Origin: Gammaproteobacteria bacterium
GTDB lineage: Bacteria > Pseudomonadota > Gammaproteobacteria > JAPPPA01
Reading direction: 5' to 3'
Length of the DNA stretch: 64,000 nt
Assembly (NCBI GenBank): GCA_030425645.1
Contig: JAUHZK010000005.1
Span: forward strand, 1 to 64,000
The translations under genes were made by a program, and so were the position numbers. Below, piece by piece: positions 1,785-29,974 of this stretch. The notes beneath the pieces were generated by a model that had not been told where the DNA came from, searched no databases, and saw nothing but the letters and a program-made list of their open reading frames with translations. Position 1 is the first letter of the stretch. Each line of letters begins with the position of its first letter.

Positions 1785-4700
1785 TTAACGTTCTAGTAAC
1801 CAACGACAGCGAATCCAATACAAAGCCGGCAATACAATCATTGATAACAGCGGCGCGGTTAACATGCCACCTACCATTGGTGCCGCAATACGCTGCATCA
1901 CTTCTGAGCCGGTGCCGCCGCCCCAGAACAAAGGCAGCAGACCAGCGATGATTACGGTCACCGTCATTGCTTTTGGTCGCACCCTGAGCACTGCACCATC
2001 ATGAATAGCCTTTTTGAAACCCTCGGCAGTTGGGTTGGACGATTTGGCTCGATACTGATTTACCGACTCGTTGAGGTAGATCAGCATGACTACACCGAAC
2101 TCGGCGGCAACACCGGCTAAGGCGATAAAACCGATACCGGTTGCCACTGACACGGAATGCCCAAGCAGGTAGATCAGCCCTACTCCGCCAGCCAAGGCAA
2201 ATGGCAAGGTGCTCAAAATCATTAGGGGTTCAGCCCAATTACCAAAAGTGGCATATAACAGCAGCAAAATGATCAGCAGAGTCACCGGCACCACCAGTTG
2301 TAATTTGGCCTTTGCACGTTCCATATACTCGAACTGACCAGACCACGTGAGTGAATAGCCTGCCGGGAGCTGTAGCTGTTCTGCGAGAAATATTTTGGCA
2401 TCAGTGACATAACTACCGACGTCTATATCGGCAATATCCACAAACACAAAACCAGTTGGCCTTGCGTTCTCGCTTTTGATCATGGGTGGGCCATCGTCAA
2501 CGAAAACACGGGCAACATCTTGCAGTTTTAGTTGTTGGCCTTGTGCGGTGATGACTGGCAAGTTTTGGATGTCATAGATCGACTCGCGGTTTGCACGGGG
2601 ATAACGCACGTTAATAGAGAAACGTCGCAATCCTTCAACGGACTCCGACACATTAGCACCGCCGACCGCCGCTGCCACGACTTGCTGAACATCGGCTATA
2701 TTGAGTCCATAACGGGCTGCTGCGGCACGATCAATATCCACCACCACATAACGTCCGCCTGCGGAACGCTCGGCGTAGACTGATGCAGTACCCTCTACCT
2801 GCGGCAGTAAGGTTTCAATGTCTGTTCCAATGGCTTGAATGACATCTAGATCAGGGCCAGAGATTTTAATGCCGACGGGCGTTTTAATCCCGGTGGCCAA
2901 CATATCAATACGGGTTTTAATCGGCATCACCCACGCATTGGTCACGCCGGGCAAATCGACACGAGACTTAATCTCCGCCCGGATTTTTTCAATCGTCATG
3001 CCCTCTCGCCATTCCGACTCAGGTTTGAAGCGAATCACGGTCTCAATCATGGTCAATGGCGCGGGGTCAGTAGCGGTATCCGCGCGGCCGATTTTGCCGA
3101 ACACTTGGCTGACTTCTGGTACCGATTTAATCAGTTTGTCGGTTTGCTGAAGCAGCTGGGAGGCTTCACCAATAGACAGCCCAGGGCGTGTGGTTGGCAT
3201 ATACATCCAATCGCCTTCGTCTAACGGCGGCATGAACTCTGACCCTAGCTTTGAGGCTGGATAAAGTGACAGCAACATCACCACTACCGATGCGCTTACA
3301 AACCACCATGGGTGTTTTAAGGTCAACTTGATGACCGGCTCGTATAGCCACTGCAACGCGCTGTTAATTGGGTTTTTATGCTCGGGCACAATGTTGCCGC
3401 GAATGAGATAACCCATTAATACCGGCACCAAGGTAATAGACAACGCAGCACCAGCGGCCATCGCCCACGTTTTGGTATAGGCCAGCGGTGCAAACAAACG
3501 TCCCTCTTGCGCCTCCAATGAGAAAACCGGCAAAAAGCTTAGGGTGATAATCATGAGCGAGAAAAACAGTGCCGGGCCGACCTCTATGGAAGCCTTTGTC
3601 ACCAGCTTCCAATGCGGGGTTTTGCCATCGTCGTGCTCAATGTGTTTGTGGACGTTCTCAATCATCACGATGGCCGCATCCACCATCGCTCCAATCGCAA
3701 TTGCGATACCGCCCAAAGACATAATATTGGCGTTAAGGCCCTGCCAACGCAGAATCATCAGGGCCGCCAATACGCCCAACGGCAACACTACGATAGCCAC
3801 TAAGGCCGAGCGCAAATGGAAAAGAAACAAAGCGCAAACCAAAGCCACTACTAAAAACTCTTCCAGTAGCTTGATGTAAAGATTGCTGACGGCGCGATTA
3901 ATCAGCTCGCTGCGGTCGTAGGTTGGCACAATCTCAACGCCTTCTGGCAGGCTGGCTGACAGCGCTTCAATTTTGGTTTTAACGCCATTAATCACTGCCT
4001 GAGCATTCTCGCCGTAGCGCATCACGATAATACCGCCAGCAACTTCACCTTCCCCATCTAGTTCGGCGATACCGCGCCGTAGCTGAGGGCCAACGTTAAT
4101 GCGGGCAACGTCAGACAGAGTGACCACCACCCCTTGTGAATTCGTCATTAATGGAATTTGGCGTAGCTCATCCATGCCCTGTATATAGCCAGTGGCTCTG
4201 ACCATAAATTCGGTTTCGGCCATTTCGATGACCGAGCCACCGACTTCTCCGTTACCACGCTTTATCGCACTGGTAACGTCTGCAAGGCTAATGCTGTAAT
4301 GGCGCAGCAAATCTGGTTCAACCGTCACTTGGTATTGCTTCACCATGCCGCCCACGCTGGCCACTTCTGACACGCCGGGCAAAGATTGCAATTCGTATTT
4401 CAAGAACCAGTCTTGAATGGCGCGTAGCTCAGACAAATCATGGCGGCCGGTTCGATCTACCAAGGCGTACTCATATACCCAGCCAACACCGGTTGCGTCT
4501 GGCCCTAATGCTGATGATGTCCCTTCCGGAAGACGCGGCGTGATCTGGCTGAGATATTCCAACACGCGAGAACGCGCCCAGTACGGGTCTGTACCATCCG
4601 CAAAAATGATGTAAACAAAGGAGTCACCAAAGAAAGAAAAACCGCGCACTGTTTCCGCTCCTGGCACCGACAACATAGCCGTAGTGAGCGGGTACGTCAC

Positions 4701-4892
4701 CTGTTGCTCCACCACTTGCGGCGCTTGGCCTGGGTAGCTGGTTTTCACAATAACTTGCACATCAGACAAGTCCGGAATCGCGTCTACCGGCATGCTGCGA
4801 AGGTTTAGCCAACCAAACACAGTGAGCAACACCGCAGCTATCAGCACCAAACTACGGTGCTGAATAGATTTTTGGATAATGCTATCGATCAT
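1785..4892 (-). CDS. cusA: CusA-type copper/silver RND efflux pump
   Basis: A 1035-residue inner-membrane RND transporter of the heavy-metal-efflux class. It would use the proton gradient to export Cu(I)/Ag(I) through a CusCBA tripartite channel. The three methionines that form the Met triad of E. coli CusA have clear counterparts in WMYMPTT, PLTMIET and IDMLATG, which separates it from CzcA-type Zn/Co/Cd pumps. Membrane segment 4 reads GAMVDAAIVMIENVHK, with the Asp and Glu of the proton relay. The start overlaps the cusB stop by 11 bases. It is the last gene of the distal operon; no obvious terminator was found downstream. Confidence 0.92.
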   Translation of the reverse strand: MIDSIIQKSIQHRSLVLIAAVLLTVFGWLNLRSMPVDAIPDLSDVQVIVKTSYPGQAPQVVEQQVTYPLTTAMLSVPGAETVRGFSFFGDSFVYIIFADGTDPYWARSRVLEYLSQITPRLPEGTSSALGPDATGVGWVYEYALVDRTGRHDLSELRAIQDWFLKYELQSLPGVSEVASVGGMVKQYQVTVEPDLLRHYSISLADVTSAIKRGNGEVGGSVIEMAETEFMVRATGYIQGMDELRQIPLMTNSQGVVVTLSDVARINVGPQLRRGIAELDGEGEVAGGIIVMRYGENAQAVINGVKTKIEALSASLPEGVEIVPTYDRSELINRAVSNLYIKLLEEFLVVALVCALFLFHLRSALVAIVVLPLGVLAALMILRWQGLNANIMSLGGIAIAIGAMVDAAIVMIENVHKHIEHDDGKTPHWKLVTKASIEVGPALFFSLMIITLSFLPVFSLEAQEGRLFAPLAYTKTWAMAAGAALSITLVPVLMGYLIRGNIVPEHKNPINSALQWLYEPVIKLTLKHPWWFVSASVVVMLLSLYPASKLGSEFMPPLDEGDWMYMPTTRPGLSIGEASQLLQQTDKLIKSVPEVSQVFGKIGRADTATDPAPLTMIETVIRFKPESEWREGMTIEKIRAEIKSRVDLPGVTNAWVMPIKTRIDMLATGIKTPVGIKISGPDLDVIQAIGTDIETLLPQVEGTASVYAERSAGGRYVVVDIDRAAAARYGLNIADVQQVVAAAVGGANVSESVEGLRRFSINVRYPRANRESIYDIQNLPVITAQGQQLKLQDVARVFVDDGPPMIKSENARPTGFVFVDIADIDVGSYVTDAKIFLAEQLQLPAGYSLTWSGQFEYMERAKAKLQLVVPVTLLIILLLLYATFGNWAEPLMILSTLPFALAGGVGLIYLLGHSVSVATGIGFIALAGVAAEFGVVMLIYLNESVNQYRAKSSNPTAEGFKKAIHDGAVLRVRPKAMTVTVIIAGLLPLFWGGGTGSEVMQRIAAPMVGGMLTAPLLSMIVLPALYWIRCRWLLER

Positions 4893-6405
4893 GATTCATA
4901 TCCTTATGGTTCATATGATCATGATCTATGCCTTGCTGACTCATCGGCTCTGATTCGGTCGATGCCTGATCTTCAGCGTTACCAGCCGGCTCAATAAATG
5001 TCAGCAGCCAATCGCCGTCCAAGTTTTCTTGGATACGAAAACGCACACGGTCTTCTTTGTTAAATGGCATTAAGTTGATGTCGCGTGCGACTTCAAAAAC
5101 CATATTCATGCTTGGCCAACCCAGAGATTCAATCTCGTCATGAAATAAGCGGATTTGTCCACGGCGAGGGAATCCCCAAATGCTGCCGGTACCTTCTGCT
5201 GCTCTAGCTGCAGTGAGGCGCTCAAGCGCCTGCTGCCCATTCGCCTCAGAGTCCAGTAAGAACTGACCAGATGTCACTACTCGATCACCCGCATCTAGGC
5301 CTTCGACAATCACTACCGAAGTGCTCGACTCGGCACCAAGGCGCACGGGTTTTACCGTAAATTGGCCATCACCTCGGGCCACCACCACGCGATCGCCATC
5401 ACGCATGCGAATAATGGCGTCGGTGGGCAGCTGCAAAGCTTCAGCTTGAGTTGAGCGAATCGCCAAACGAGCAAACATACCTGCTCGTAGTTGTCTGGCA
5501 GGATTGGCCACGATTGCTCGTACTTTCACCGTTCGGGTCATTCGCTCCAGTTCTGGATATATGTAATCCAGCTTGGCTTCCACCGTCTCGTTTGGAAACG
5601 CCGCCAACGACACCGTAACCACATCACCGACGGATAAATTCGCCGCATCGGTTTCTGGCAAGAAGGCTTCGACCCAAACTTGATCGGTATTCACCACTGT
5701 CGCGATTTCGGTCTTTGGCGTCACATAGCTGCCCTTGGCCACAGCCAATGACAACACCACCGAGTCACGTGCTACGCGATGTTCCACCAATCGTTGCGTT
5801 TTACGCTGGCTTCTAAGTTGTTGAACTTGTGTGTCACTCAACCCCAGCGCCAGCAAGCGACGCTGACTGTTATTGATCTGCACCCGATTACCAGAGCGTA
5901 AGGCTTGCAAGTACTCCTCTTGAGCCGTGACCAACTGTGGCGCATATAAGCCGAACATTAACTCGTTAGCGGCGATGCGTTGGCCAACGCTACTCAGCTC
6001 GAACGTTTCCAACCAACCCTCTGCGCGTGCGTAAACCTTGCTGATTTGACTGCCATCCCAAACTACCTCGCCAACCGCAGAAACGTCTTTCACCCAAGGT
6101 TGAATAATGGCTTCTGTGGTTTTCACGCCCAAGTTTTGGGTGGTCGCAGCGCTAATCGTCACACTGTTTTCTTCTGCCGTTTTCTCACCGGCATACACCG
6201 GTACCAGATCCATGCCCATCGGCGATTTGCCCGGTTGGTCGCGACGAAAATTGTCATCCATGGGCGCAACCCAGTACAAAATTTCAGGTTCGCCGTTGGC
6301 ATTGCCCGATGTGCTGTTTGTGTCGATTGGTGCCTGATGAGCGCCCCAATAACCGAGCCCGATACCAGCCAGCAACACAACTGGAAATGTAAATTTGATA
6401 TTCAT
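4882..6405 (-). CDS. cusB: CusB-type periplasmic adaptor with N-terminal metal-binding and C-terminal CusF domains
   Basis: A 507-residue membrane fusion protein linking the CusA pump to the outer-membrane channel. It has an N-terminal signal/anchor, then a heavy-metal-binding motif near residues 43-70 (YWVAPMDDN, KSPMGMDLVPVY) whose methionines match the CusB metal-loading site. Barrel-sandwich and coiled-coil segments fill the middle. A C-terminal CusF-like domain at about 415-475 has FHDEI, LGWPSMNM and the expected His, Trp and two Met ligands. The tail is rich in His and Met (DHDHMNHKDMNHDR). In E. coli CusF is a separate protein; here chaperone and adaptor are fused. Confidence 0.9.
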   Translation of the reverse strand: MNIKFTFPVVLLAGIGLGYWGAHQAPIDTNSTSGNANGEPEILYWVAPMDDNFRRDQPGKSPMGMDLVPVYAGEKTAEENSVTISAATTQNLGVKTTEAIIQPWVKDVSAVGEVVWDGSQISKVYARAEGWLETFELSSVGQRIAANELMFGLYAPQLVTAQEEYLQALRSGNRVQINNSQRRLLALGLSDTQVQQLRSQRKTQRLVEHRVARDSVVLSLAVAKGSYVTPKTEIATVVNTDQVWVEAFLPETDAANLSVGDVVTVSLAAFPNETVEAKLDYIYPELERMTRTVKVRAIVANPARQLRAGMFARLAIRSTQAEALQLPTDAIIRMRDGDRVVVARGDGQFTVKPVRLGAESSTSVVIVEGLDAGDRVVTSGQFLLDSEANGQQALERLTAARAAEGTGSIWGFPRRGQIRLFHDEIESLGWPSMNMVFEVARDINLMPFNKEDRVRFRIQENLDGDWLLTFIEPAGNAEDQASTESEPMSQQGIDHDHMNHKDMNHDR

Positions 6406-18405: not shown

Positions 18406-19932
18406 TTACTGGGCAACGCTCTCTTCTAAGAAAGTGCCGACGGCATTCATCATGGCTTCCCACTCTTTAGGTGCCATGCTTTCGCCGGGGTCGTTACCAA
18501 AACGTACACCAACTAAATTAAGCGAAGGTGCCACGCCAACCCGCTGGTGACCATAGCCAGCCGCGGTGTAGTTACCAGACTCTTCGCCACCCCAATGCGG
18601 CCACATATAGCCACGCGGGCCGCCGCCATTGGCTTTGTCGTAGTTATGAGAAGCCTCTGTCCAAGCCTCTGGTACAACTTGTGTGCCATCGACTGTGCGA
18701 CCACCGTTGCGGAACAATTCACCAAAGCGAACCATGTCACGTGTTGTTGCCATTAAACCCATAGAGGCAAACGTATTGCCTAGGCGGTCTGTCATTACTA
18801 GGGCGTCATCCTGCATACCTGCCGGCTGCCAAAGCTTTTCCGACAAAATCTCGGCGTATTGCTTGTTGTATAAGTTCTCTAGCAACCAAGCCAACATTTG
18901 GCAGTCGCCACTGTTATAACGGTAATGATGGCCTGTTGGCGAAACACGGGTAAGCTTCAGCAGGTACTCGTCGCGGGTCATGCCGTAAAGGCCATTACTG
19001 TGATAATCGGCACCCATTAATACCAACTGCTCTGGCTGGTGTACCGGCACGTCAACCCAGTAGGTGCCCGACTCCATCTGTAATAGATCCTCAATACTGA
19101 CACCTTCCCAAACGGTTTCAGCCGCTTCCGGAACGTATTTTTTGATTGGATCGTAAATAGAATCGACTAAGCCCTCTTCAACCGCAATACCAATCAAGGC
19201 AGTCGTTACCGACTTGGTCACTGACCACATATGCGGGCGTGTTTGGGCGTCAAATCCGTTTTGGTAAGCCTCGTAGATAAAGTTACCGTTGTGAGCAAAA
19301 GCGATTGAGTTAGTGGAGCCGCTATTCATGAAATCTTCTACCGTGCGGGTGCGGCCATTGATTTCATAGGTCACCTGACTCAGGTCAATCTTGGCTTCAG
19401 GCATATCAGCTGCCGCCGGATCCGCCTTAACCACTTCGGTTGGCAGTATCACAATTACCGTAGTGGCATCGACAGGTAGCAAGATGATTGAAACTTCACC
19501 GTCTTGCGTATCTTCTAACAAACGGGTCGGCTGTGAGCCGCTCAGCAGAAGGTCAGCACGATCAGCCAGCAAGTCATCCAGCGCACCTACGCCGTGTACA
19601 AACTCACTTGGGTTTTTGTAATAACGGCCCGCATGCATTGCCACTACATCACCCAAACCGTCTGGCAATGTTGTTAGCGCTGCTTGAATAGAATCAGGAT
19701 CTGACGGCAGAGAATGCATGCCACTGCGCTCGACCATGTAGCGTAGTTCTTCCGCCAGAATCACACCTTCATTAGGCGGTTCAGATGTCTCCGTTACCGG
19801 CGGCTGCTCTGGCGTCTCTCCATCGGTGGCGTCTTTATCGTCTGCCCCAGAGCCAGACGACCCTTGGCACGCAGCCAAAACAATTACCGCAAACATCGCC
19901 AACAAGCGATTTCGCCACATCAAAAGATCCAT
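18406..19932 (-). CDS. Beta-lactamase-fold serine hydrolase, lipoprotein
   Basis: A 508-residue exported lipoprotein with lipobox FAVIVLAAC near residue 22 and a low-complexity acidic linker after it. The C-terminal two-thirds is a class C beta-lactamase/esterase fold: SVTKSV supplies S-x-x-K near residue 240 and RYNSGDC supplies Y-x-N. The unusual N-terminal extension of about 200 residues has no recognised domain. Members act as esterases or peptidases on small substrates or cell-wall peptides; here the substrate is unknown. The gene appears to stand alone, with its own terminator. Confidence 0.8.
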   Translation of the reverse strand: MDLLMWRNRLLAMFAVIVLAACQGSSGSGADDKDATDGETPEQPPVTETSEPPNEGVILAEELRYMVERSGMHSLPSDPDSIQAALTTLPDGLGDVVAMHAGRYYKNPSEFVHGVGALDDLLADRADLLLSGSQPTRLLEDTQDGEVSIILLPVDATTVIVILPTEVVKADPAAADMPEAKIDLSQVTYEINGRTRTVEDFMNSGSTNSIAFAHNGNFIYEAYQNGFDAQTRPHMWSVTKSVTTALIGIAVEEGLVDSIYDPIKKYVPEAAETVWEGVSIEDLLQMESGTYWVDVPVHQPEQLVLMGADYHSNGLYGMTRDEYLLKLTRVSPTGHHYRYNSGDCQMLAWLLENLYNKQYAEILSEKLWQPAGMQDDALVMTDRLGNTFASMGLMATTRDMVRFGELFRNGGRTVDGTQVVPEAWTEASHNYDKANGGGPRGYMWPHWGGEESGNYTAAGYGHQRVGVAPSLNLVGVRFGNDPGESMAPKEWEAMMNAVGTFLEESVAQ

Positions 19933-20154
19933 TAGGTTTCCTCCAGCGTTTAGCTATTTAGAATAGTTATAAAGCTGGTAACTTAATGGGTTCTTCAAAA
20001 CTATTCAATATAGCTGGCCAACAGTTTCGATTTGGCTAACCTAGCGCTCTGGTGCCGCGCGATTATCTCGCCAGTGGTTGACGATAAGCTGTAAACGAAA
20101 AACCGCCTTATAAGCCAGCGTTAGAGAAAAGGCAGGATCACGCTTGCGCTAAGC

Positions 20155-20640
20155 TCAACACCATAGGTATAGCGACAGCGCCGCTATAGTAAAACTGTCG
20201 GTTATGCCACCAGCGGTAATCATTTTTTTAACTTCCGTCGGCGAAGCAAGCATGACCCTTCCTACCTCATCACCAACAGTATTTGCCGGCTCTACATCGC
20301 CCAAATCAACTGTATATAGATCAACTTCAGAATCTAGTACCGCGCCGTTTGGAGCGACCTTCCCCAACTGACGTAGATTTCGCGGGTCTGCGACATAGCC
20401 AGTTTCTTCGCGTAATTCTCTAGCTGCCGTCTCTATACTTAATTCACCAGCCTCACCATAGCCTCGCGGCAATTCAATCATGTGCTTACCAATCGCTGGA
20501 CGGTATTGCTCAACTAGCACAATCGCGTCGTTCACTATGGCCAGAATCACCGCGCCATTACTAGCGTTGTGTTCCCGCATAAAATGAAAGCCGTCACTTT
20601 CGACAATGGCAAACCAATGATTGCGATATACGACATTCAT
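20155..20640 (-). CDS. Nudix hydrolase (ADP-ribose-pyrophosphatase-like)
   Basis: A 161-residue protein with a complete Nudix box (G-x5-E-x7-RE-x2-EE-x-G, read as GYGEAGELSIETAARELREE and TGY), preceded by ELPRG as in ADP-ribose-type Nudix enzymes. It should hydrolyse a nucleoside diphosphate linked to another moiety; the substrate is not deducible. Its start overlaps the stop of the upstream unknown gene in an ATGA arrangement, so the two are translationally coupled and may act together. The stretch 19933-20154 next to it shows no gene. Confidence 0.85.
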   Translation of the reverse strand: MNVVYRNHWFAIVESDGFHFMREHNASNGAVILAIVNDAIVLVEQYRPAIGKHMIELPRGYGEAGELSIETAARELREETGYVADPRNLRQLGKVAPNGAVLDSEVDLYTVDLGDVEPANTVGDEVGRVMLASPTEVKKMITAGGITDSFTIAALSLYLWC

Positions 20641-21575
20641 TTCAGTTCAACCCCCATAAATCTGGCCATCATCGGATACATGCCAAACCAATTACGACGG
20701 CTCAAATATCTAAAGCCCTTCTCACTCAATTTGTCTTCTACATAATTGCAGGCTTCATCAGTTAGATATTTGACGATATCTTCGATCCCAAAGGTGTGGA
20801 TGAATTGAAACAGTTCAAGCGGGAAGGAAATTAGGGAAATTTCTTTCCTTAGTGCCCGTAGCCCAACAGTACCCTCCATTAACACCCCGGGCACACCCGG
20901 CAGAACATTAATATTGTCGTGAATAAAAGCTTCGTTATCCACTGTCAGCACGCGACTGTAAGCCGGATCGAGTATTTCCCTCTTAAACGGCTCAGCGTCA
21001 CCCTGCACATGTTGACTGAAAAAGGCATTAACGCCTTCGTACCATTCCGACCGAGACACCCAGCCCGCCGCCTTCTTTTCAAAAGCAACATAGCTCGATT
21101 TGTTAGGGAAATACTTAACTATGGAACTAGCATCCAACCCCTGGGGCCCATAGATTTCATCGCGTAACGCCGTTGCCGGTTTATTGAGGCCTACCGTACA
21201 GGCCGAAATCGCATCCAGATTGAACTGAACCCGCCGCAACCGCTCAACCAATTCTGTAACTTCGCTATTCGTGAGTTCTTGTTTGCTTTTTCCACCCAAA
21301 CTCGAAAACAAGAACGTTTCAGGCAACGCGTCATAGTAATCAAGCACAGTCATTGACGACTCTAGGCCAAAGCCACGAACAATAAACTTGCCGGCGCCCT
21401 CTTCATTTAGATATTTACAGGCTGCGCGATCGCCTAAAAAACCAAATGTACTGTTGTTATCTACCAAGACGTTAGGGCTAACAACAACGCCATCTGCGAA
21501 CGCTAATCCCATCATCACTCGTTTTTTAAGCTCAAGCCGACTTAGTTGTCTGACAGAGTCACAGTTGCTCAACAT
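20637..21575 (-). CDS. Unrecognised 312-residue protein coupled to a Nudix hydrolase
   Basis: I do not recognise this protein. It is soluble, with no signal peptide or membrane segment, and mixed alpha/beta in look. Distinctive stretches are GLAFADGVVVSPNVLVDNN, KYLNEEGAGKFIVRGFG and LFQFIHTFGIEDIVKYLTDE. The ATG at 21575, with GAGAAG upstream, is preferred to a TTG at 21596. Its stop overlaps the Nudix start by 4 bases. Position just outside a tRNA-Phe attachment array and the pairing with a nucleotide-processing enzyme raise the possibility of a nucleotide-linked accessory system, but that is speculation. Confidence 0.65.
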   Translation of the reverse strand: MLSNCDSVRQLSRLELKKRVMMGLAFADGVVVSPNVLVDNNSTFGFLGDRAACKYLNEEGAGKFIVRGFGLESSMTVLDYYDALPETFLFSSLGGKSKQELTNSEVTELVERLRRVQFNLDAISACTVGLNKPATALRDEIYGPQGLDASSIVKYFPNKSSYVAFEKKAAGWVSRSEWYEGVNAFFSQHVQGDAEPFKREILDPAYSRVLTVDNEAFIHDNINVLPGVPGVLMEGTVGLRALRKEISLISFPLELFQFIHTFGIEDIVKYLTDEACNYVEDKLSEKGFRYLSRRNWFGMYPMMARFMGVELK

Positions 21576-21807
21576 GAGCTTCTCTTTGAACAGCAAGCTA
21601 TCTCACCCGAATAAACCTAATTGCCACAAGCTTCGCACAAAATTAATTCAACAATCTACGACACTCAAAACTGGAAATACAAAAGCTCGCAGCGCTAAGC
21701 AGCATCAAACCGCCATTAACGAAAGTGGGGACACAAGAGAAATACAATGCAACACGGAAGCGTGACAACCATCCCGAAGATGGAGATCTATGCGGCAAGA
21801 AAAAGAA

Positions 21808-21852
21808 TGGTGGCCCGGGACAGAATCGAACTGCCGTCACACGGATTTTCAA
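21808..21852. repeat. tRNA-Phe 3'-end copy (outermost attachment site)
   Basis: Forty-five bases identical, except one T/A change at 21837, to the 3' portion of tRNA-Phe at 29899-29943. The copy stops inside the anticodon region at ATTTTCAA. The 45 bases to its right (21853-21897) are also close to the right flank of the second copy (22926-22970), with 4 differences by eye, so the left ends of two related elements are present. Confidence 0.9.
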
Positions 21853-21987
21853 CAAGCATTTAACTGTACTTCAATGCACCCTAGCGCACCTTGCCAACCC
21901 GTCAAAACACTCTATTAAATGCTGGCGATGACACAACGGGAAAACCGATGAGATTGATTAAATATCACCAGATGATAATATAAGGCA

Positions 21988-22347
21988 ATGAAAGACGCTG
22001 GAATTCGAACACTACTAGAGCTAGATGGTTCAATACTGGAACTAGGGCAAGGCTACTGGGCCAAGATTGACGCGAAAGAAACCGCTGCCGACACCAACAG
22101 GCCGCACGGCATTCGATACTCACTCAGTTTGCACTCCCCTAGCGGCAAGCGCCTTTTAGGTTATGACAATGCTCATGCAGTCAAACCGCCAAAGAAATTT
22201 AAATATGCCGGTCAGCGCTATCCATATGACCATAAACATGCGCATGCTGCCGATAAAGGGCAACTCTATGAATTTAAAGATGCCAGCCAATTAATGGCTG
22301 ACTTTTGGGATGACGTTAACAACTATCTCGACAAGGTGAAACCATGA
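21988..22347 (+). CDS. DUF6516-like protein, putative toxin partner
   Basis: A 119-residue soluble protein with HGIRYSLSLHSPSGKRLLGYDNAHAV and KYPYDHKHAH-like text (residues YPYDHKHAHAADKG), the pattern of DUF6516 proteins that are usually encoded next to a winged-helix partner. It contains several His that could be catalytic or metal binding. The stop overlaps the next start by 4 bases (ATGA). Such pairs have been proposed to be toxin-antitoxin modules; here that is inference. They are the only genes of the small att-flanked element, consistent with a stabilising cargo. Confidence 0.65.
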   Translation: MKDAGIRTLLELDGSILELGQGYWAKIDAKETAADTNRPHGIRYSLSLHSPSGKRLLGYDNAHAVKPPKKFKYAGQRYPYDHKHAHAADKGQLYEFKDASQLMADFWDDVNNYLDKVKP

Positions 22348-22703
22348 AACGACTACCGACTATTCGAATTGGCATTGCTTCTCGGAAAGAAATACAAGAA
22401 CGCACGCTTGCTATTGCTAAGGGCGACTACACACCCCAAAAAGACGAACCTAAAGTATGGTTTACATCAATGAAATCACTGGCAGAGGTTTTGAGCGAAG
22501 ATAACCGTGCACTACTACGCGTGATTCGGGAACAACATCCGGAATCCATTGGCGAGCTAGCCGAGCTAACAGGACGAGCCCCTAGCAACGTGTCTCGCAC
22601 ACTTAAGACAATGAGCCGCTACGGGTTTGTTACAACAGAACGCGTAAGCCGGAATGTGCGCCCAGTTGCCAAAGTTCAAGACTTCGAAATCAGAGCTGCT
22701 TAA
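22344..22703 (+). CDS. HVO_A0114-like winged-helix DNA-binding protein, putative antitoxin/regulator
   Basis: A 119-residue protein whose second half is a MarR/ArsR-like winged helix (SIGELAELTGRAPSNVSRTL, KTMSRYGFVTTE). The N-terminal half contains VWFTSMKSLAEVLSEDNRAL, typical of the HVO_A0114 family paired with DUF6516. It probably represses its own operon and, if the pair is a toxin-antitoxin module, would be the antitoxin. It ends 15 bases before a 17-base fragment of the tRNA-Phe att sequence. Confidence 0.65.
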   Translation: MKRLPTIRIGIASRKEIQERTLAIAKGDYTPQKDEPKVWFTSMKSLAEVLSEDNRALLRVIREQHPESIGELAELTGRAPSNVSRTLKTMSRYGFVTTERVSRNVRPVAKVQDFEIRAA

Positions 22704-22718
22704 GACGAAAGGAAAAAG

Positions 22719-22735
22719 TGGTGGCCCGGGACAGA
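22719..22735. repeat. Partial tRNA-Phe att fragment
   Basis: TGGTGGCCCGGGACAGA, the first 17 bases of the tRNA-Phe 3' copy, occurs here and then diverges. Its left flank (GAAAAAG) resembles that of the outermost copy. It looks like a decayed or truncated fourth attachment site inside the small element. The 145 bases to the next full copy hold nothing I recognise. Confidence 0.6.
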
Positions 22736-22880
22736 GCCGAGCGCAGCGAGACAACAGCGCACAGCACTGGTCATCGAACATCAAGCAAGTGGCTCAATGC
22801 CACGCCGATTGCTTCCAGTTCGCTTCAAACAACAGGAAAGACTTACCCGACAGTGGGCGTTCAAACATTTGGAAATAAAA

Positions 22881-22925
22881 TGGTGGCCCGGGACAGAATC
22901 GAACTGCCGACACACGGATTTTCAA
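22881..22925. repeat. tRNA-Phe 3'-end copy (middle attachment site)
   Basis: Forty-five bases identical to 29899-29943 of the intact tRNA-Phe gene. Identity extends leftward by nine more bases (GAAATAAAA, 22872-22880 against 29890-29898), giving a 54-base perfect direct repeat that flanks the 7-kb element. Like the outer copy it stops within the anticodon loop. Confidence 0.92.
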
Positions 22926-23205: not shown

Positions 23206-24150
23206 ATGGATGTTATTTCACTGTTCTCTGGAGCTGGCGGCTTGGATTTAGGGTTAATTCAAGCTGGCCACAAAGTTATTTGGGCAAACGATAATGACCC
23301 GGATGCGGTGGAGACATACGCCAGAAACATCGGCAGTCACATCACACTGGGCAGCATTACCGACATTCATGAAAACTCCATTCCCTATGCTGATGTTGTG
23401 GTGGGCGGCTTCCCTTGCCAAGGCTTTTCTTTGGCTAATTTAAAACGTTTCGAAGACGATGAAAGAAACAGATTGTATTTAGATTTTTATCGTGTCATTA
23501 AGGCCAAAAAACCTAAGTATTTCCTTGCAGAAAATGTGCGCGGCATACTTAGTCTAGCCAACGGCACTGCAATCCAGAAGATTGAATCCGATTTTTCAAA
23601 AGCAGGCTACAGAGTACAAGTTAAGCTATTTAACGCCTCAGAGTTTGGAGTACCTCAGAATAGATGGCGTGTGATTATTGCTGGCACACGAAAGGATTTA
23701 CCAACAGGTCATGATTATGTTTACCCCGACACCACCCATGGAGGTAAAGGCCAACCCGAAAAAGTAACTATTGGTCAAGCTTTAGCCGGGATTCCGGAAC
23801 CAGATAGCGAACACTGCCTCGAAAATCATATTTATTCAAAATATAAAGTGACAAATAGAAACTTCACCGGCCACCGGAGGACTGACCCCAATAAGCCCTC
23901 TCCCACAATACTAGCTAGGGGAAATGGAAAGGGCGGCGTTTGCGCAATACAACACCCCTTGAATCACCGACGCATGTCTGTCCGCGAGTCGGCAACAATT
24001 CAAACATTCCCTCAAGATTTTATTTTCGTTGGGAAAATGAACTCATGCTATAGGCAAGTAGGAAACGCTGTACCCGTTAAGTTTGCTGAAAAGCTGGGAG
24101 AGCAACTCGCAGCTCTAGAAGTAAACAACATCAACAAAGGTGCTGCATGA
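23206..24150 (+). CDS. DNA (cytosine-5-)-methyltransferase, first copy
   Basis: A 314-residue C5 methyltransferase with motifs in canonical order: I (LFSGAGGLDLGL, residues 5-16), IV (GGFPCQGFS, catalytic Cys near 73), VI (AENVRGI), VIII (QNRWRVIIAG), IX (RRMSVRESATIQTFP) and X (QVGNAVPVKFAEKLG). The region between VIII and IX is short and includes GHRRTDPNKPSPT. It should protect one strand or one site of the cognate restriction target. Its stop overlaps the second methyltransferase start by 4 bases, and the two proteins are clear paralogues. Confidence 0.93.
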   Translation: MDVISLFSGAGGLDLGLIQAGHKVIWANDNDPDAVETYARNIGSHITLGSITDIHENSIPYADVVVGGFPCQGFSLANLKRFEDDERNRLYLDFYRVIKAKKPKYFLAENVRGILSLANGTAIQKIESDFSKAGYRVQVKLFNASEFGVPQNRWRVIIAGTRKDLPTGHDYVYPDTTHGGKGQPEKVTIGQALAGIPEPDSEHCLENHIYSKYKVTNRNFTGHRRTDPNKPSPTILARGNGKGGVCAIQHPLNHRRMSVRESATIQTFPQDFIFVGKMNSCYRQVGNAVPVKFAEKLGEQLAALEVNNINKGAA

Positions 24151-25127
24151 AGGTCGTTAGCTTATTCTCCGGCGCTGGTGGTTTCGACCTTGGCCTAATA
24201 GCGTCCGGTCACGAGATAGTGTGGGCAAATGACATTTTTCAGGATGCCGCTGACACCTATGAAAAAAACATCTCTGCGCATATTGATCGTAGAGACATAA
24301 GGGAAATACCTTCTAGTGATATACCCGATGCTGATCTCATTGTTGGGGGGTTCCCCTGTCAGGGTTTTTCAGTGGCCAACTGGAAACGAACTACCGATGA
24401 TTCGCGTAACTTTCTCTATCGAGAAATGGCTCGAGTAATAAAGGATAAACAACCTAAATATTTTCTGGCAGAAAATGTAAAAGGGTTAGCCTCGATGGAG
24501 AAAGGAGCTGTACTAGAAGCAATTAAAAAAGACTTTCGCAACCTAGGCTATACAGTCAATCACTGCATCCTCAATGCGGCGGACTACGGAGTACCGCAAG
24601 CTAGGATGAGATTATTTATTCTGGGCGTAAGACAAGATGTTGAAAATAACATCCAGTTCCCACCAGCGGCGACTCACTCAAAACCAGAAAAAAATACCGA
24701 GCAAAAATTAAAATCGTGGGTGACTGTCGGTCAAGCTCTATCAGAGATACCCGAGCCTGAAACGTTACATAACTTATCGAATCACACCGGGTCGAAATAT
24801 AAGCTGCGCTTTAATGGACATATTGGTCATAGACGAATTGATCCTGATAAGCCATCACCCACAGTCACCGCGCGCGGCGATGATAAAGGCGGTGTTGTAG
24901 TGTTACATCACCCCGGAAATCACCGCCGTATGACTGTGAGAGAATTGGCTACTGTCCAATCATTTCCTCTTAATTATGAATTTTGTGGTCCTAATAGTTC
25001 TGCCTATCGCCAAATCGGAAATGCTGTACCACCGGTCTTAGGAAAAGCTCTTGGGTCTATTTTTACAGCAATCGAAGAAGATACCGATAGCGTCCAAGTT
25101 CCGACAAATGATGAGGTTGCAGCTTGA
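24147..25127 (+). CDS. DNA (cytosine-5-)-methyltransferase, second copy
   Basis: A 326-residue C5 methyltransferase, complete and with all core motifs: LFSGAGGFDLGL, GGFPCQGFSVAN, AENVKGL, PQARMRLFILG, RRMTVRELATVQSFP and QIGNAVPPVLG. Its target-recognition stretch (GHRRIDPDKPSPT, then ARGDDKGGV) closely resembles that of the first enzyme. Two intact paralogous m5C enzymes in one operon suggest an asymmetric target whose two strands need separate methylation. That is inference; the target sequence is unknown. Overlaps of 4 bases on both sides show a tightly coupled operon. Confidence 0.93.
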   Translation: MKVVSLFSGAGGFDLGLIASGHEIVWANDIFQDAADTYEKNISAHIDRRDIREIPSSDIPDADLIVGGFPCQGFSVANWKRTTDDSRNFLYREMARVIKDKQPKYFLAENVKGLASMEKGAVLEAIKKDFRNLGYTVNHCILNAADYGVPQARMRLFILGVRQDVENNIQFPPAATHSKPEKNTEQKLKSWVTVGQALSEIPEPETLHNLSNHTGSKYKLRFNGHIGHRRIDPDKPSPTVTARGDDKGGVVVLHHPGNHRRMTVRELATVQSFPLNYEFCGPNSSAYRQIGNAVPPVLGKALGSIFTAIEEDTDSVQVPTNDEVAA

Positions 25128-26359
25128 TACCAACAAAACCATTCCCAGAATTCAAATGGCGTTGGCTCAGCACAACACCAACCGAGGGTTTACTAGTACC
25201 ACCCGTTTTTTTAGGTGTCCTTCGTGCTCTGGCGACCCACGAAGGCGTTGCACCGAGCAGCCCTGAACTGCTTGAAAGCTTAGCTAAGGTGCAAGCAGAC
25301 ACCAATACGGGAGTAAACCTTGTCCGTACTCCTGATAGAAATCTAATTAGAAACTCTGGACAATACTGGAAAGGCACTGGACTTATTAAACCCCAAAGTG
25401 GTGTTATCCAGCTATCGAACTTGGGTTGGCAGGTTGCCACAAGCGAGCTATCCCAAGACGAGTTTGCAGCACTAATAATCCATCAAACAGAACTCCCCAA
25501 CCGGAATACCTTCCCTGAAGCGCTATACCAAAAGTGGCTCGACGCCGGAATTAGGGTAAAACCCTTTGTCTTAATACTCGAGGTTATTACTTGCCTTGGA
25601 AAAGAAGCGGGAGATTCTCAGGCTTATATTACTGAGGAAGAGTTAGTCAAAATAATTGTTCCGCTTTCTGGAAATTCGCAGCCACCTTCAGTGCATGCTG
25701 AACATATCATTGAACACCGTAATGGCAACCTAAATTTATCTGCTTGGCCTTCATGTTGCGAAGCAGCAAATGACAAACGAATGGCGCGAGAATTCTTGTA
25801 TTTCTTAGCTAACTACGATGTTTGCGCCAAAAATATTGTGGATGAGGAACTCAGGTACTGCTTGACTGCGACATCACAGATTGCGTCTATATCGGACCTA
25901 GATGTTGCAACAGATCAAGATGCTTTAAACACTGACGATGGAGCAGCAGATGCTGTTGAAAGAACACGTCATTCTGAATTACCTTCGATAATAGAACGTC
26001 AGAGAACAACCACGACAGTTATCAACCGACCCAACCAATCTAAATTTCGCAAAGAAGTCCTTACGCACGCTGACAATATTTGTGTAATCACTGGAGATAC
26101 AATTCCAAAAGTATTAGAAGCCGCCCACATAATTCCGGTTACCCATGGGGGTACTGATAACTTAGACAACGGGTTTTGTATGCGCGTAGACATTCACCGC
26201 CTATATGACTCGTCGTTAATACGTATATTACCTAATGGAACCATTAACGTATCTAGCTCCGTTAGATCAAGCCCAGGCTACTCAAGCCTACCAAGCAGCA
26301 TAACTATTCCTGCACACGTCAACCCTGCAAATATGGAATGGCGGAACAGTTATTGCTAA
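25124..26359 (+). CDS. HNH restriction endonuclease (putative, R-M partner)
   Basis: A 411-residue protein with a C-terminal HNH_2-type nuclease at about 310-375: ICVITGDTIPKVLEAAHIIP, then HGGTDNLDNGFCMRVDIHRL, giving the His-Asn-His triad. The N-terminal 300 residues are not recognised but include HAEHIIEHRNGN and a Cys pair (SCCEAAND), possibly part of target recognition. Translation starts at TTG inside a TTGA overlap with the methyltransferase stop. Position directly after two m5C methyltransferases makes it the likely restriction enzyme. Cleavage site and type (II/IIS) are unknown. Confidence 0.8.
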   Translation: MIPTKPFPEFKWRWLSTTPTEGLLVPPVFLGVLRALATHEGVAPSSPELLESLAKVQADTNTGVNLVRTPDRNLIRNSGQYWKGTGLIKPQSGVIQLSNLGWQVATSELSQDEFAALIIHQTELPNRNTFPEALYQKWLDAGIRVKPFVLILEVITCLGKEAGDSQAYITEEELVKIIVPLSGNSQPPSVHAEHIIEHRNGNLNLSAWPSCCEAANDKRMAREFLYFLANYDVCAKNIVDEELRYCLTATSQIASISDLDVATDQDALNTDDGAADAVERTRHSELPSIIERQRTTTTVINRPNQSKFRKEVLTHADNICVITGDTIPKVLEAAHIIPVTHGGTDNLDNGFCMRVDIHRLYDSSLIRILPNGTINVSSSVRSSPGYSSLPSSITIPAHVNPANMEWRNSYC

Positions 26360-26468: not shown

Positions 26469-27260
26469 ATGAAAAACAGCCACGCACAAATAATTCTCGA
26501 CGATTTAGCGGCAAACCTTCACAAATACCATAAGCACTTAAAAGAAAACGACAATTTTTATCGCGATCTTCAAGCGTGGCTGAAGCAACTCGCTCCTGAA
26601 AAACAGGCTTATTTGTTCGATCAATTTGTTCCGTGGCATCAGTGGTATGAGCTCCCATTTATAACGGCTTCATTACCCCTTCTAGAGTTTGGTCATGTAC
26701 TCAACAAAGTACCTAAAATAGACGTTAGAGCGCCTCACACTGGTTTAAACAACCTCATCCAATCAGCCACATTTGATCAACCAAAAGACGAATGGGAAGC
26801 TCTAGATATGCTTCGGTCAATACTTGGCCCACTGTACGTAAATCTATATAGCCTGAAGTCGATGTCGTATTACGGCCTTCCAATTCAGGAACTGGTTGAG
26901 ATCGGTTCGCCAGAGTCACTTTTAGCCGCGATAACAATTGATCCAACTGTTTCAGGCTGCACGCCTTTCATAAAATTGCTTTCTGTTGCTACCGCTCTAA
27001 ATGATCAGAAATTCATAAATGCGTACAAGAAGGCCCTGTCGGGGCCTCACAAGAACCGGGGCATGCGGAAGGATGTACGGCTCATGGATGTAATTCTTCA
27101 GGACTCATACTCAGCCATTGGGGAAAATTTCACTGACTCAGCAGCCACTAAACTTTTGATAGACGAACTTGGGATATATAACACCGATGAAGACCCTGTT
27201 GCTGCTCTAAAGCAGTCACGTGTCAACTGGGCAAAAGAACGCAATAAAATAAAACGCTAA
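26469..27260 (+). CDS. Unrecognised 263-residue protein in the R-M element
   Basis: I do not recognise this protein. It is predicted soluble and largely helical, rich in aromatic residues near the start (NDNFYRDLQAWLKQLAP, FDQFVPWHQWYELPF), with no nuclease, methylase or helix-turn-helix motif visible. It has its own ribosome site (AAGGAG, 8-12 bases upstream) and a 109-base gap after the endonuclease gene, so it may be expressed separately. The context between a restriction enzyme and Rep allows an accessory defence role, a replication role, or simple cargo; none is demonstrated. Confidence 0.7.
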   Translation: MKNSHAQIILDDLAANLHKYHKHLKENDNFYRDLQAWLKQLAPEKQAYLFDQFVPWHQWYELPFITASLPLLEFGHVLNKVPKIDVRAPHTGLNNLIQSATFDQPKDEWEALDMLRSILGPLYVNLYSLKSMSYYGLPIQELVEIGSPESLLAAITIDPTVSGCTPFIKLLSVATALNDQKFINAYKKALSGPHKNRGMRKDVRLMDVILQDSYSAIGENFTDSAATKLLIDELGIYNTDEDPVAALKQSRVNWAKERNKIKR

Positions 27261-27300
27261 TTTTGTTTTATCGATCGCCAGTAGCCTGTGCCTAAATATA

Positions 27301-27330
27301 CGTGCTCCTTTCACAAAAAATCGGAGCATG
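27301..27330 (+). promoter_or_regulatory. Hairpin sequestering the rep ribosome site
   Basis: CGTGCTCC (27301-27308) can pair with GGAGCATG (27323-27330), one G-U pair included, around a 14-base A-rich loop. The right arm contains the GGAG Shine-Dalgarno of the Rep-like gene, whose ATG is at 27333. Folding would hide the ribosome site, so translation of Rep may be controlled. Confidence 0.5.
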
Positions 27331-27332
27331 AA

Positions 27333-28667
27333 ATGTCCCAACAATCTGACACTCAAAAAAACCAGCCGCAGCGAGAGACGCAGCGGCAGGCAGAGCCAGC
27401 CCGCGCGCCTCGCGCTGAGGCAGGTGCGCTGGCTAGTAACACAGCACCTGCAAATTGCAGTAATTACCCTTTTAAGGTTTTAAGACAGGGAATAGATAGC
27501 CTTTATCTGTCATTCCCCGGTAAGTTGCACTCTGATCGAGAAATAGAGCTTTCAGAACTTAAGCGACTTGCTCAGTCAGCAGATGAAAGCAACAAGGCCT
27601 TGGCGGTCTTTGATTTGGACGGCCATCAGTTTGAAGTCTCTGATCGCGGCTGGGGTAAGTTCAAATACGTTCTGCAAGATAGCTATCAACTAATTAAGGT
27701 TTCTTCTGCTTCGGCAAAATCTTTGCCGCTAGCAACCACCCAAGTCAGTGCCAATTGGCTAGCAATGGAAAACGTGCAGCAAATCATTGAAGAAACCGCT
27801 TCGATCATTTCCGAGTTGGGCCAACTAGAAGATCAAGCCCAAGTTTCCCGCGCTGACATTTTCGTCGACTTTGTAGCGCCCTACGGGCTGCATGACTGGG
27901 ATGAAAACTCGTGGGTTACACGCGCACTGCAAAAATCACGCTATAGCATCGGCAACATTCCCACGGGTTGGATGATCGGTGCCGGTGGTATTCGATCGGC
28001 TCGTTTGTATGACAAAACAGAAGAGATTAAAAAGAGCGGTAAGGAGTACCTGAAAACACTGTGGGCTGAAAACGGCTGGGACGGCGAATGCCCGGTTTAC
28101 CGATTGGAGTTCCAGCTCAAGCGCGAAGCACTAAGAGAGCATGATGCTGCCACCCCTGACAAACTGCTTTCTCGCCTTGGCGTGTTATGGGAGTACGCCA
28201 CTCAAGAATGGTTAAGGCTCACCCTTCCAAGCGATACAGATCAAACCCAAACCCGTTGGCCTAACCACCCCATGTGGGAAGAGTTAAGCGAGGTTGAGTG
28301 GCTAGGTACTGAGTATGCCGATCGCAAGCCTGTAACACTTAACGGCGCGCCTAGTATGCAAACGCTATCTCGCCAGATATTGGGGGCTGTAACGTCTCAC
28401 ATGGCCGTAGAAACCATCTACGACCCAGAGGCGGCTGTGGATTCTCTATGGGTAGCTACTCGCAAGCATCATCTGCTCAATAACCTAGCGGGCGACAAAC
28501 CACTAGAGGACTGGATGCTAGACCGAGCCGCTAACAAAGCACGTAAGTTTGGGCTGCCTTATAACAATGCTAGCGAACAGGCTCGGAAGATAACCGGCGC
28601 CGCCATTCGCCGCGCATATGAGAAGGATATGGGCAATGGACACCGTACCAACGACACTAACCCTTAA
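27333..28667 (+). CDS. Rolling-circle-type replication initiation protein (Rep_trans-like)
   Basis: About 444 residues. After a charged, low-complexity N-terminus, the body reads like plasmid/phage replication initiation factors: GIDSLYLSFPGK at the start of the domain, VSRADIFVDFV in the middle, and ARLYDKTEEIKKSGKEY followed by CPVYRLEFQLKREALREH, where the Tyr and acidic residues resemble the nicking region of Rep_trans proteins. It may let the element replicate after excision. The ATG at 27333 is chosen over a GTG at 27288 because GGAG precedes it. Family placement is by eye. Confidence 0.65.
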   Translation: MSQQSDTQKNQPQRETQRQAEPARAPRAEAGALASNTAPANCSNYPFKVLRQGIDSLYLSFPGKLHSDREIELSELKRLAQSADESNKALAVFDLDGHQFEVSDRGWGKFKYVLQDSYQLIKVSSASAKSLPLATTQVSANWLAMENVQQIIEETASIISELGQLEDQAQVSRADIFVDFVAPYGLHDWDENSWVTRALQKSRYSIGNIPTGWMIGAGGIRSARLYDKTEEIKKSGKEYLKTLWAENGWDGECPVYRLEFQLKREALREHDAATPDKLLSRLGVLWEYATQEWLRLTLPSDTDQTQTRWPNHPMWEELSEVEWLGTEYADRKPVTLNGAPSMQTLSRQILGAVTSHMAVETIYDPEAAVDSLWVATRKHHLLNNLAGDKPLEDWMLDRAANKARKFGLPYNNASEQARKITGAAIRRAYEKDMGNGHRTNDTNP

Positions 28668-28956
28668 GGAGGCGGCAGAATGGTTACACATGTCTCCAGC
28701 GGTCTTATGTCGCAAGGCTCGCGCGGGTTTAGTGCCCGCCGCGAAACCCGGCAAGCATTGGATATTTTTAGCAGACGATCTTGCCGCCTACGTTCGATCC
28801 CTCTACCCTGCTTCTCGGCAGGTGCCGCTTGGGTGCAGCGATAAGGAGAAAAACTTATGGCTATTTACCAACGCGGAAAGACTTGGTGGGTTCACTTCGT
28901 CGCCCCAAACGGGGAACGAATACGCCAAAGCACTGGGACTGCCGACCGACAACTAG
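28636..28956 (+). CDS. HTH_17/excisionase-type DNA-binding protein
   Basis: About 106 residues with an excisionase-type winged helix: LTLKEAAEWLHMSPAVLCRK, then AKPGKHWIFLADDLAAYVRS. The tail (AERLGGFTSSP, EYAKALGLP) resembles that of short helix-turn-helix proteins I associate with small integrative elements, so the whole frame appears real. It starts inside the rep gene (overlap of 32 bases) and its last 100 bases overlap the integrase gene. It probably acts as recombination directionality factor or regulator of the integrase. Confidence 0.7.
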   Translation: MDTVPTTLTLKEAAEWLHMSPAVLCRKARAGLVPAAKPGKHWIFLADDLAAYVRSLYPASRQVPLGCSDKEKNLWLFTNAERLGGFTSSPQTGNEYAKALGLPTDN

Positions 28957-29873
28957 CCGAGGAATATCACGACCGACTTAAAACGCGGTACTGGGAAATT
29001 CAGCGGCTAGGCGTCAAACCCGAACGATCATGGCAAGAAGCTGTGGTTCGGTGGATAGAAGAGACGGATCACAAGGCCGACCATCACAACGATGTGGCAA
29101 AACTCCGGTGGCTAGACCAACATCTAGGCCACCTGAACTTGAGCCAGATTAAACGTGACGTAATCGACAAGGTGGCCGCCATTAAGCGTGAGGAATCGAG
29201 CGCTTCAACGGCGAACCACTATCTAGCACTCATCAGATCCATTCTGAGACGCGCTAGAGACGATTGGGAATGGGTCGACCATGTGCCTAAGGTTCGGCTT
29301 TTTCCAGTATCTAATCGCCGTGTGCGATGGATTACCAAGGATGAAGCCCGCGCCCTACTCTTTGAGCTACCGACACACTTGCGTGACATGGCAGCGTTTA
29401 CGTTAGCCACTGGGTTAAGGCAGTCCAACGTGTCGTACTTGAGATGGGATCAAGTGGACATGGAAAGGTGTACGGCGTGGATTCACCACGACCAAGCAAA
29501 AGCTCGACGAGCGATTGCAGTCCCACTTAACGGTGACGCATTGTCAATTTTGCGCCGCCGTAAAGGCCAGAATGCTGAATGGGTATTTACCTATAACGGC
29601 AAACCGGTCGAGCGTTGTTCTACCAAGGCATGGTATGCCGCGTTAGAGCGCGCAGGAATAGAGAACTTCCGGTGGCATGACTTACGCCACACTTGGGCTT
29701 CTTGGCACGTTCAGGCTGGAACCAGCATGCAAGAGCTTATGGAGCTTGGAAGCTGGCGTTCTTTTGAGATGGTGCATCGGTACGCACATTTGGCTTCTGA
29801 CCACTTACTAGAAGCCGCTATGCGGATCAATGACACAAAATTGACACAACCCCGCTTAGTCAGCGGTTTGTAA
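28857..29873 (+). CDS. int: Tyrosine recombinase / integrase
   Basis: A 338-residue phage-type integrase. The catalytic domain has the first Arg in TLATGLRQSNVSYLRW (about residue 180), HDLRHTWASW with the H-x-x-R pair, and the nucleophile Tyr in HRYAHLA. The usual second His before the Tyr is replaced in ELGSWRSFEMVHRYAHL. A strong AAGGAG precedes the ATG. The gene ends 25 bases from the intact tRNA-Phe and should catalyse integration at its 3' end, recombining the 45-base copies listed here. Confidence 0.9.
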   Translation: MAIYQRGKTWWVHFVAPNGERIRQSTGTADRQLAEEYHDRLKTRYWEIQRLGVKPERSWQEAVVRWIEETDHKADHHNDVAKLRWLDQHLGHLNLSQIKRDVIDKVAAIKREESSASTANHYLALIRSILRRARDDWEWVDHVPKVRLFPVSNRRVRWITKDEARALLFELPTHLRDMAAFTLATGLRQSNVSYLRWDQVDMERCTAWIHHDQAKARRAIAVPLNGDALSILRRRKGQNAEWVFTYNGKPVERCSTKAWYAALERAGIENFRWHDLRHTWASWHVQAGTSMQELMELGSWRSFEMVHRYAHLASDHLLEAAMRINDTKLTQPRLVSGL

Positions 29874-29898
29874 ATTTCGGTAAATCATTGAAATAAAA

Positions 29899-29974
29899 TG
29901 GTGGCCCGGGACAGAATCGAACTGCCGACACACGGATTTTCAATCCGTTGCTCTACCAACTGAGCTACCAGGCC
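29899..29974 (-). tRNA. tRNA-Phe (anticodon GAA)
   Basis: A 76-base gene with encoded CCA. Acceptor GGCCTGG pairs with CCGGGCC (one G-U), D arm GCTC/GAGC, anticodon stem ACGGA/TCCGT with loop TTGAAAA (anticodon GAA), and T arm GGCAG-TTCGATT-CTGTC. The gene is intact although its 3' 45 bases are the attachment core of two elements to the left. It is transcribed toward the integrase. Confidence 0.97.

Follow-up and report, generated by a model that had tools for sequence, protein, structure and literature searches.

A predicted Type II restriction-modification cassette with two m5C methyltransferases and a BpuJI-like HNH nuclease, carried by an integrative element at tRNA-Phe

Among the described enzymes closest to the system presented here, the nuclease domain of BpuJI is of the PD-(D/E)XK kind, Nt.BspD6I is not an HNH enzyme, and the nuclease of Eco31I/BsaI is an HNH enzyme. 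BpuJI is a Type IIS restriction endonuclease with an asymmetric recognition sequence (PMC9240713), and the nuclease domains of Type IIS enzymes are usually HNH or PD-(D/E)xK (PMC10201449). Nt.BspD6I, the large subunit of a Type IIT enzyme, has an asymmetric target and works with a small second-strand subunit (PMC4081073). Type IIA and Type IIT enzymes with asymmetric sites usually have two methyltransferases, one per strand; some Type IIP systems also have two methyltransferases for one palindrome, but these are rare (PMC4081073). The Eco31I/BsaI system (GGTCTC) is of Type IIS and has two methyltransferases for one asymmetric site (PMC10810934). The locus described below is likened to it by description and differs in the size of these enzymes, which are 314 and 326 residues long, compared with 396 and 546 in Eco31I (PMC10810934). 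Two further groups bear on the comparison: VcaM4I and TagI, which are modification-dependent HNH endonucleases, and the NgoAVII-type systems, which have one methyltransferase, a PLD-domain nuclease and a Z1 N protein (PLD nuclease plus ATPase).

The window, a 64,000-nucleotide stretch of a gammaproteobacterial contig, contains at 23206-26359 on the + strand three open genes in the order M1-M2-R, with an overlap of 4 bases at each junction in the open reading frames:

23206..24150, + strand: M1, m5C DNA methyltransferase, 314 aa, ATG start (PF00145, E 1.4e-75; recognition stretch YKVTNRNFTGHR...RRM)
24147..25127, + strand: M2, paralogous m5C DNA methyltransferase, 326 aa, ATG start (PF00145, E 6e-79; recognition stretch YKLRFNGHIGHR...RRM)
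25124..26359, + strand: R, predicted restriction endonuclease, 411 aa, TTG start (HNH_2, E 2.2e-11; AlphaFold model)

In agreement with the initial annotation, which had described a restriction-modification operon of two paralogous m5C methyltransferases and an HNH nuclease, PF00145 and HNH_2 are both matched at full length. Both methyltransferase genes are complete, as had been proposed, with each protein matching PF00145 at full length. The proposed TTG start of R, within its own 4-base overlap, is credible because the orthologs begin with MIPxKPF from an ATG at the same residue, inside the same overlap. These overlaps make coupled translation of M1, M2 and R probable, R being the last gene. 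Around the operon, no sigma-70-like promoter or terminator was found above shuffles, and a search for regulatory RNA found none.

M1 and M2 score 255 and 266 bits against PF00145 (curated cut-off 22) and 229 and 251 against TIGR00675 (cut-off 100.65). The PCQ, ENV, QxRxR and GNAVP motifs are kept in both enzymes and are present in 16 of 16 aligned sequences; with a full-length domain above the cut-off, both proteins therefore belong to the m5C DNA methyltransferase family. They are the only PF00145 genes found in the 2.75-Mb genome. The two are 52% identical overall and 60% identical over a 45-residue recognition stretch (27 of 45 residues), which bears out the similarity noted earlier between their target-recognition stretches. 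The closest methyltransferases outside the family in annotated collections, of the NgoAVII type and others, are 41–42% identical; their recognition stretches align poorly, and no specificity could be read off from them.

A scan with R that covered a single genome for each species yielded eight loci encoding relatives of R, 46–53% identical in the best segment, of which seven extend to the C-terminus of R and one is a contig-edge fragment. The contigs are labeled Alphaproteobacteria, Methylovulum, Candidatus Scalindua, Methylococcaceae (two), Acidobacteriaceae, Desulfocapsa and Legionella; these are metagenome-assembled genomes, and the host label of short contigs is to be taken with care. The M1-M2-R order is the same in all seven contigs that hold DNA upstream of R, which are assigned to four phyla, and the eighth contig starts at R. 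Methyltransferases and nuclease are thus encoded and inherited together in the window and in seven contigs, as in a Type II system, and chance is excluded because the whole cassette is conserved across phyla. The genes flanking the cassette vary from contig to contig, which suggests that the three genes move together. In the Legionella contig (L039, 8275-8306), R is frameshifted while M1 and M2 are open, which may be an error of sequencing or may reflect decay or nuclease loss. Plasmids and phages gave no full-length R, only matches to its HNH part; a single-protein scan of viral contigs gave no relative, and class- and phylum-wide genome samples gave no full-length R except that of the window.

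Across the seven contigs, M1 of the window is 68–70% identical to its orthologs and M2 is 61–64% identical to its own, both over the full length. In a tree of the cassette M1s and M2s with five outside methyltransferases, the M1s form one clade and the M2s another (support 98/97 and 98/98). Each clade includes every host, so the duplication that gave rise to M1 and M2 is older than the spread of the cassette; the sister relation of the two clades has a weaker support of 82/81 and rests on few outgroups. Within the recognition stretch, mean identity is 93% among the M1s and 86% among the M2s, compared with 52% between M1 and M2. Because the stretches are individually conserved and differ to this extent from each other, each enzyme probably keeps its own fixed target, and the two targets are probably different but related.

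In R, HNH_2 (PF13391) covers residues 320-366 (E 2.2e-11, 43.9 bits, curated cut-off 21), and seven R proteins all keep H335, N349 and H358, which places it among the HNH endonucleases. An AlphaFold model was built from nine cassette sequences. The model is usable (pLDDT 75, pTM 0.74) and of middling confidence, with low-confidence stretches at 70-80 and 261-264. It predicts a recognition domain at residues 1-276 and an HNH nuclease domain at about 296-411. In the PDB, Foldseek ranks the recognition domain of BpuJI (E 1e-5) and Nt.BspD6I (E 3e-5) highest. In VIA-align, residues 1-276 superpose on the BpuJI recognition domain (PDB 2VLA) with Z 16.0 over 244 residues (rmsd 4.0), and the recognition part superposes on Nt.BspD6I with Z about 15; generic winged-helix proteins and FokI give a background of about Z 6. 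The N-terminus of R is thus predicted to fold like the DNA-recognition domain of BpuJI and like Nt.BspD6I, although at 13–14% and 11–12% identity, respectively, a shared fold need not imply the same binding mode. The earlier statement that the N-terminus is unrecognized therefore stands for sequence profiles and no longer holds for the predicted fold. BpuJI_N (PF11564) is matched at 13.5 bits, below its cut-off of 25, in one of eight members; because only the fold is similar, R is called BpuJI-like and is not placed in that family. Unlike BpuJI, R carries an HNH nuclease domain. This part (299-411) superposes on VcaM4I and TagI with Z 9.9 and 9.7, and its profile match to VcaM4I has an E value of 7e-7.

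Taken from the sequence, the gene content, the intact motifs, the conservation and the clades make the cassette a well-formed relative of known restriction systems, namely a predicted two-methyltransferase Type II system, and not a fundamentally new one. It is likely to be a Type IIS-like cassette with an asymmetric target, in which M1 and M2 serve one strand each and R cleaves unmarked DNA. Each strand of the site would be methylated at cytosine-5 by its own enzyme, one strand by M1 and the other by M2. The BpuJI-like winged-helix recognition domain would read the unmethylated site and the C-terminal HNH domain would cut; incoming unmarked DNA would be cleaved because R reads the site in its unmethylated form. 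A single asymmetric site, with its two different strands, would call for just such distinct yet related fixed targets of M1 and M2. The initial annotation had proposed such a target with one m5C enzyme per strand, and this proposal gains two independent supports, the conserved recognition stretches of M1 and M2 and the domain resembling those of BpuJI and Nt.BspD6I. Strand-specific methylation is still something we infer, as are cleavage, cleavage outside the site and a defense role. In the model of R, the domains for recognition and cutting are separate, which is compatible with cleavage at a fixed distance beyond the site.

An unlikely alternative is that the target is a palindrome or close to symmetric, in which case M1 and M2 would act on the same or overlapping sites, either at different cytosines or with one enzyme backing up the other. 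The homology of the two recognition stretches, at 60% identity in the window pair, would fit such a target, as would the rare Type IIP systems with two methyltransferases of one specificity (PMC4081073). However, each stretch is nearly frozen and the two differ at the same positions across phyla, a pattern that redundancy is not expected to preserve, and the recognition domain of R resembles those of asymmetric-site enzymes. It is improbable to a greater degree that M1 and M2 have two unrelated targets, with one enzyme paired to R and the other serving as an accessory epigenetic or anti-restriction enzyme. Although separate conserved recognition stretches alone do not place both enzymes at one site, the strict gene order and co-occurrence in seven of seven contigs speak against this, and the stretches are homologous rather than unrelated; this explanation is given the least weight of all.

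The structural matches raise another reading, in which the activity of R would depend on modification (Type IV-like) or require a certain methylation state, as with VcaM4I, TagI and EcoKMcrA. The closest structural matches of its HNH domain are indeed modification-dependent enzymes. This likeness is limited to the HNH domain, however, and the N-terminal part matches BpuJI instead. In addition, R is accompanied by a fixed pair of m5C methyltransferases in all seven contigs, an arrangement that would turn an m5C-dependent nuclease against its own cell unless it read another pattern. A modification-dependent R is accordingly held to be quite improbable, slightly less so than unrelated targets for M1 and M2. 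The reading preferred here remains that of an asymmetric site with one methyltransferase per strand.

A setting absent from the initial annotation is that M1-M2-R is the cargo of an integrative element of ~7.0 kb at tRNA-Phe, the remaining features of which are as follows:

22872..22925, no strand: attL, left boundary of the element, repeating the 3' end of tRNA-Phe with its adjoining bases (54 bases identical with 29890-29943)
26469..27260, + strand: element protein of no confident family, 263 aa (G001 element: 28% identical counterpart at the corresponding position)
27288..28667, + strand: probable plasmid-type replication initiator, 459 aa (26% identical to a pTHEBA.01 protein across 267 aa; 91% identical copy in G001)
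28618..28956, + strand: HTH_17 excisionase-like protein, 112 aa (PF12728, E 5e-9; PHROG excisionase, E 1.6e-5)
28857..29873, + strand: tyrosine integrase, 338 aa (PF00589, E 3e-27; PHROG integrase, E 5e-60)
29899..29974, - strand: tRNA-Phe(GAA), the integration site, whose 3' end forms attR (ARAGORN, Rfam)

The 459-aa protein is probably a replication initiator because it is related to the only large protein of pTHEBA.01, a 1,724-bp plasmid. It lies in a chromosomal element and has relatives on 1.7–1.8-kb plasmids of Mesotoga and Synechococcus. In the one congeneric genome compared (G001), the same backbone occupies the same tRNA-Phe, with the Rep, excisionase-like protein and integrase 91%, 87% and 87% identical. 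The cargo slot there holds, instead of M1-M2-R, an AAA_21 ATPase and an RloB protein that match the AbiLi and AbiLii models (L055, reverse complement, 3024-4969). An integrase next to a tRNA gene, direct att repeats and a same-site relative of different content are thus all present, and the AbiL-like pair on the same backbone indicates that the restriction-modification cassette is an exchangeable, probably defensive, cargo. The cassette would travel as part of this element. The 263-aa protein at 26469-27260, which adjoins the Rep gene, is just 28% identical to its congeneric counterpart, compared with 87–91% for its neighbors.

Further att-like copies lie outside the left end of the element. 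The tRNA-Phe att repeat recurs 1.07 kb beyond the copy at 22872, as a second copy of 99 bases that is 94% identical to it (region 21799-22882). Between these copies are a TumE-like toxin gene (21988-22347) and an HTH antitoxin-like gene (22344-22703), and the stacked copies with this pair between them give the site the look of a stacked hotspot. A third, partial copy is found at 22713-22740, just outside attL, with 16 bases exact (GGTGGCCCGGGACAGA). Farther out, between the neighboring core gene and the att copies, 19932-21799 contains two genes, one NUDIX-like and the other, of 319 aa, with no family; similar DNA is absent from the same place in the congeneric genome.

Two features of this locus are less usual: the predicted architecture of R, BpuJI-like with HNH, and an element that swaps its cargo. 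A search of open-access papers found no fusion of BpuJI with an HNH domain. It is a tentative proposal, on balance somewhat doubtful, that R represents an undescribed architecture in which a BpuJI-type reader of asymmetric sites is fused to an HNH nuclease and has an as yet unused specificity, in a fixed three-gene cassette that has spread across phyla and is carried here by a small family of tRNA-Phe elements that swap defense cargo. If the asymmetric-site reading is true, the cassette would provide two strand-specific m5C enzymes and possibly a new Type IIS-like specificity, which could be put to use as tools. For the question of how m5C methyltransferases read related sequences, the two recognition stretches, homologous and frozen, offer a clean natural comparison. 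The element, finally, is a compact platform for defense cargo that swaps modules at one tRNA.
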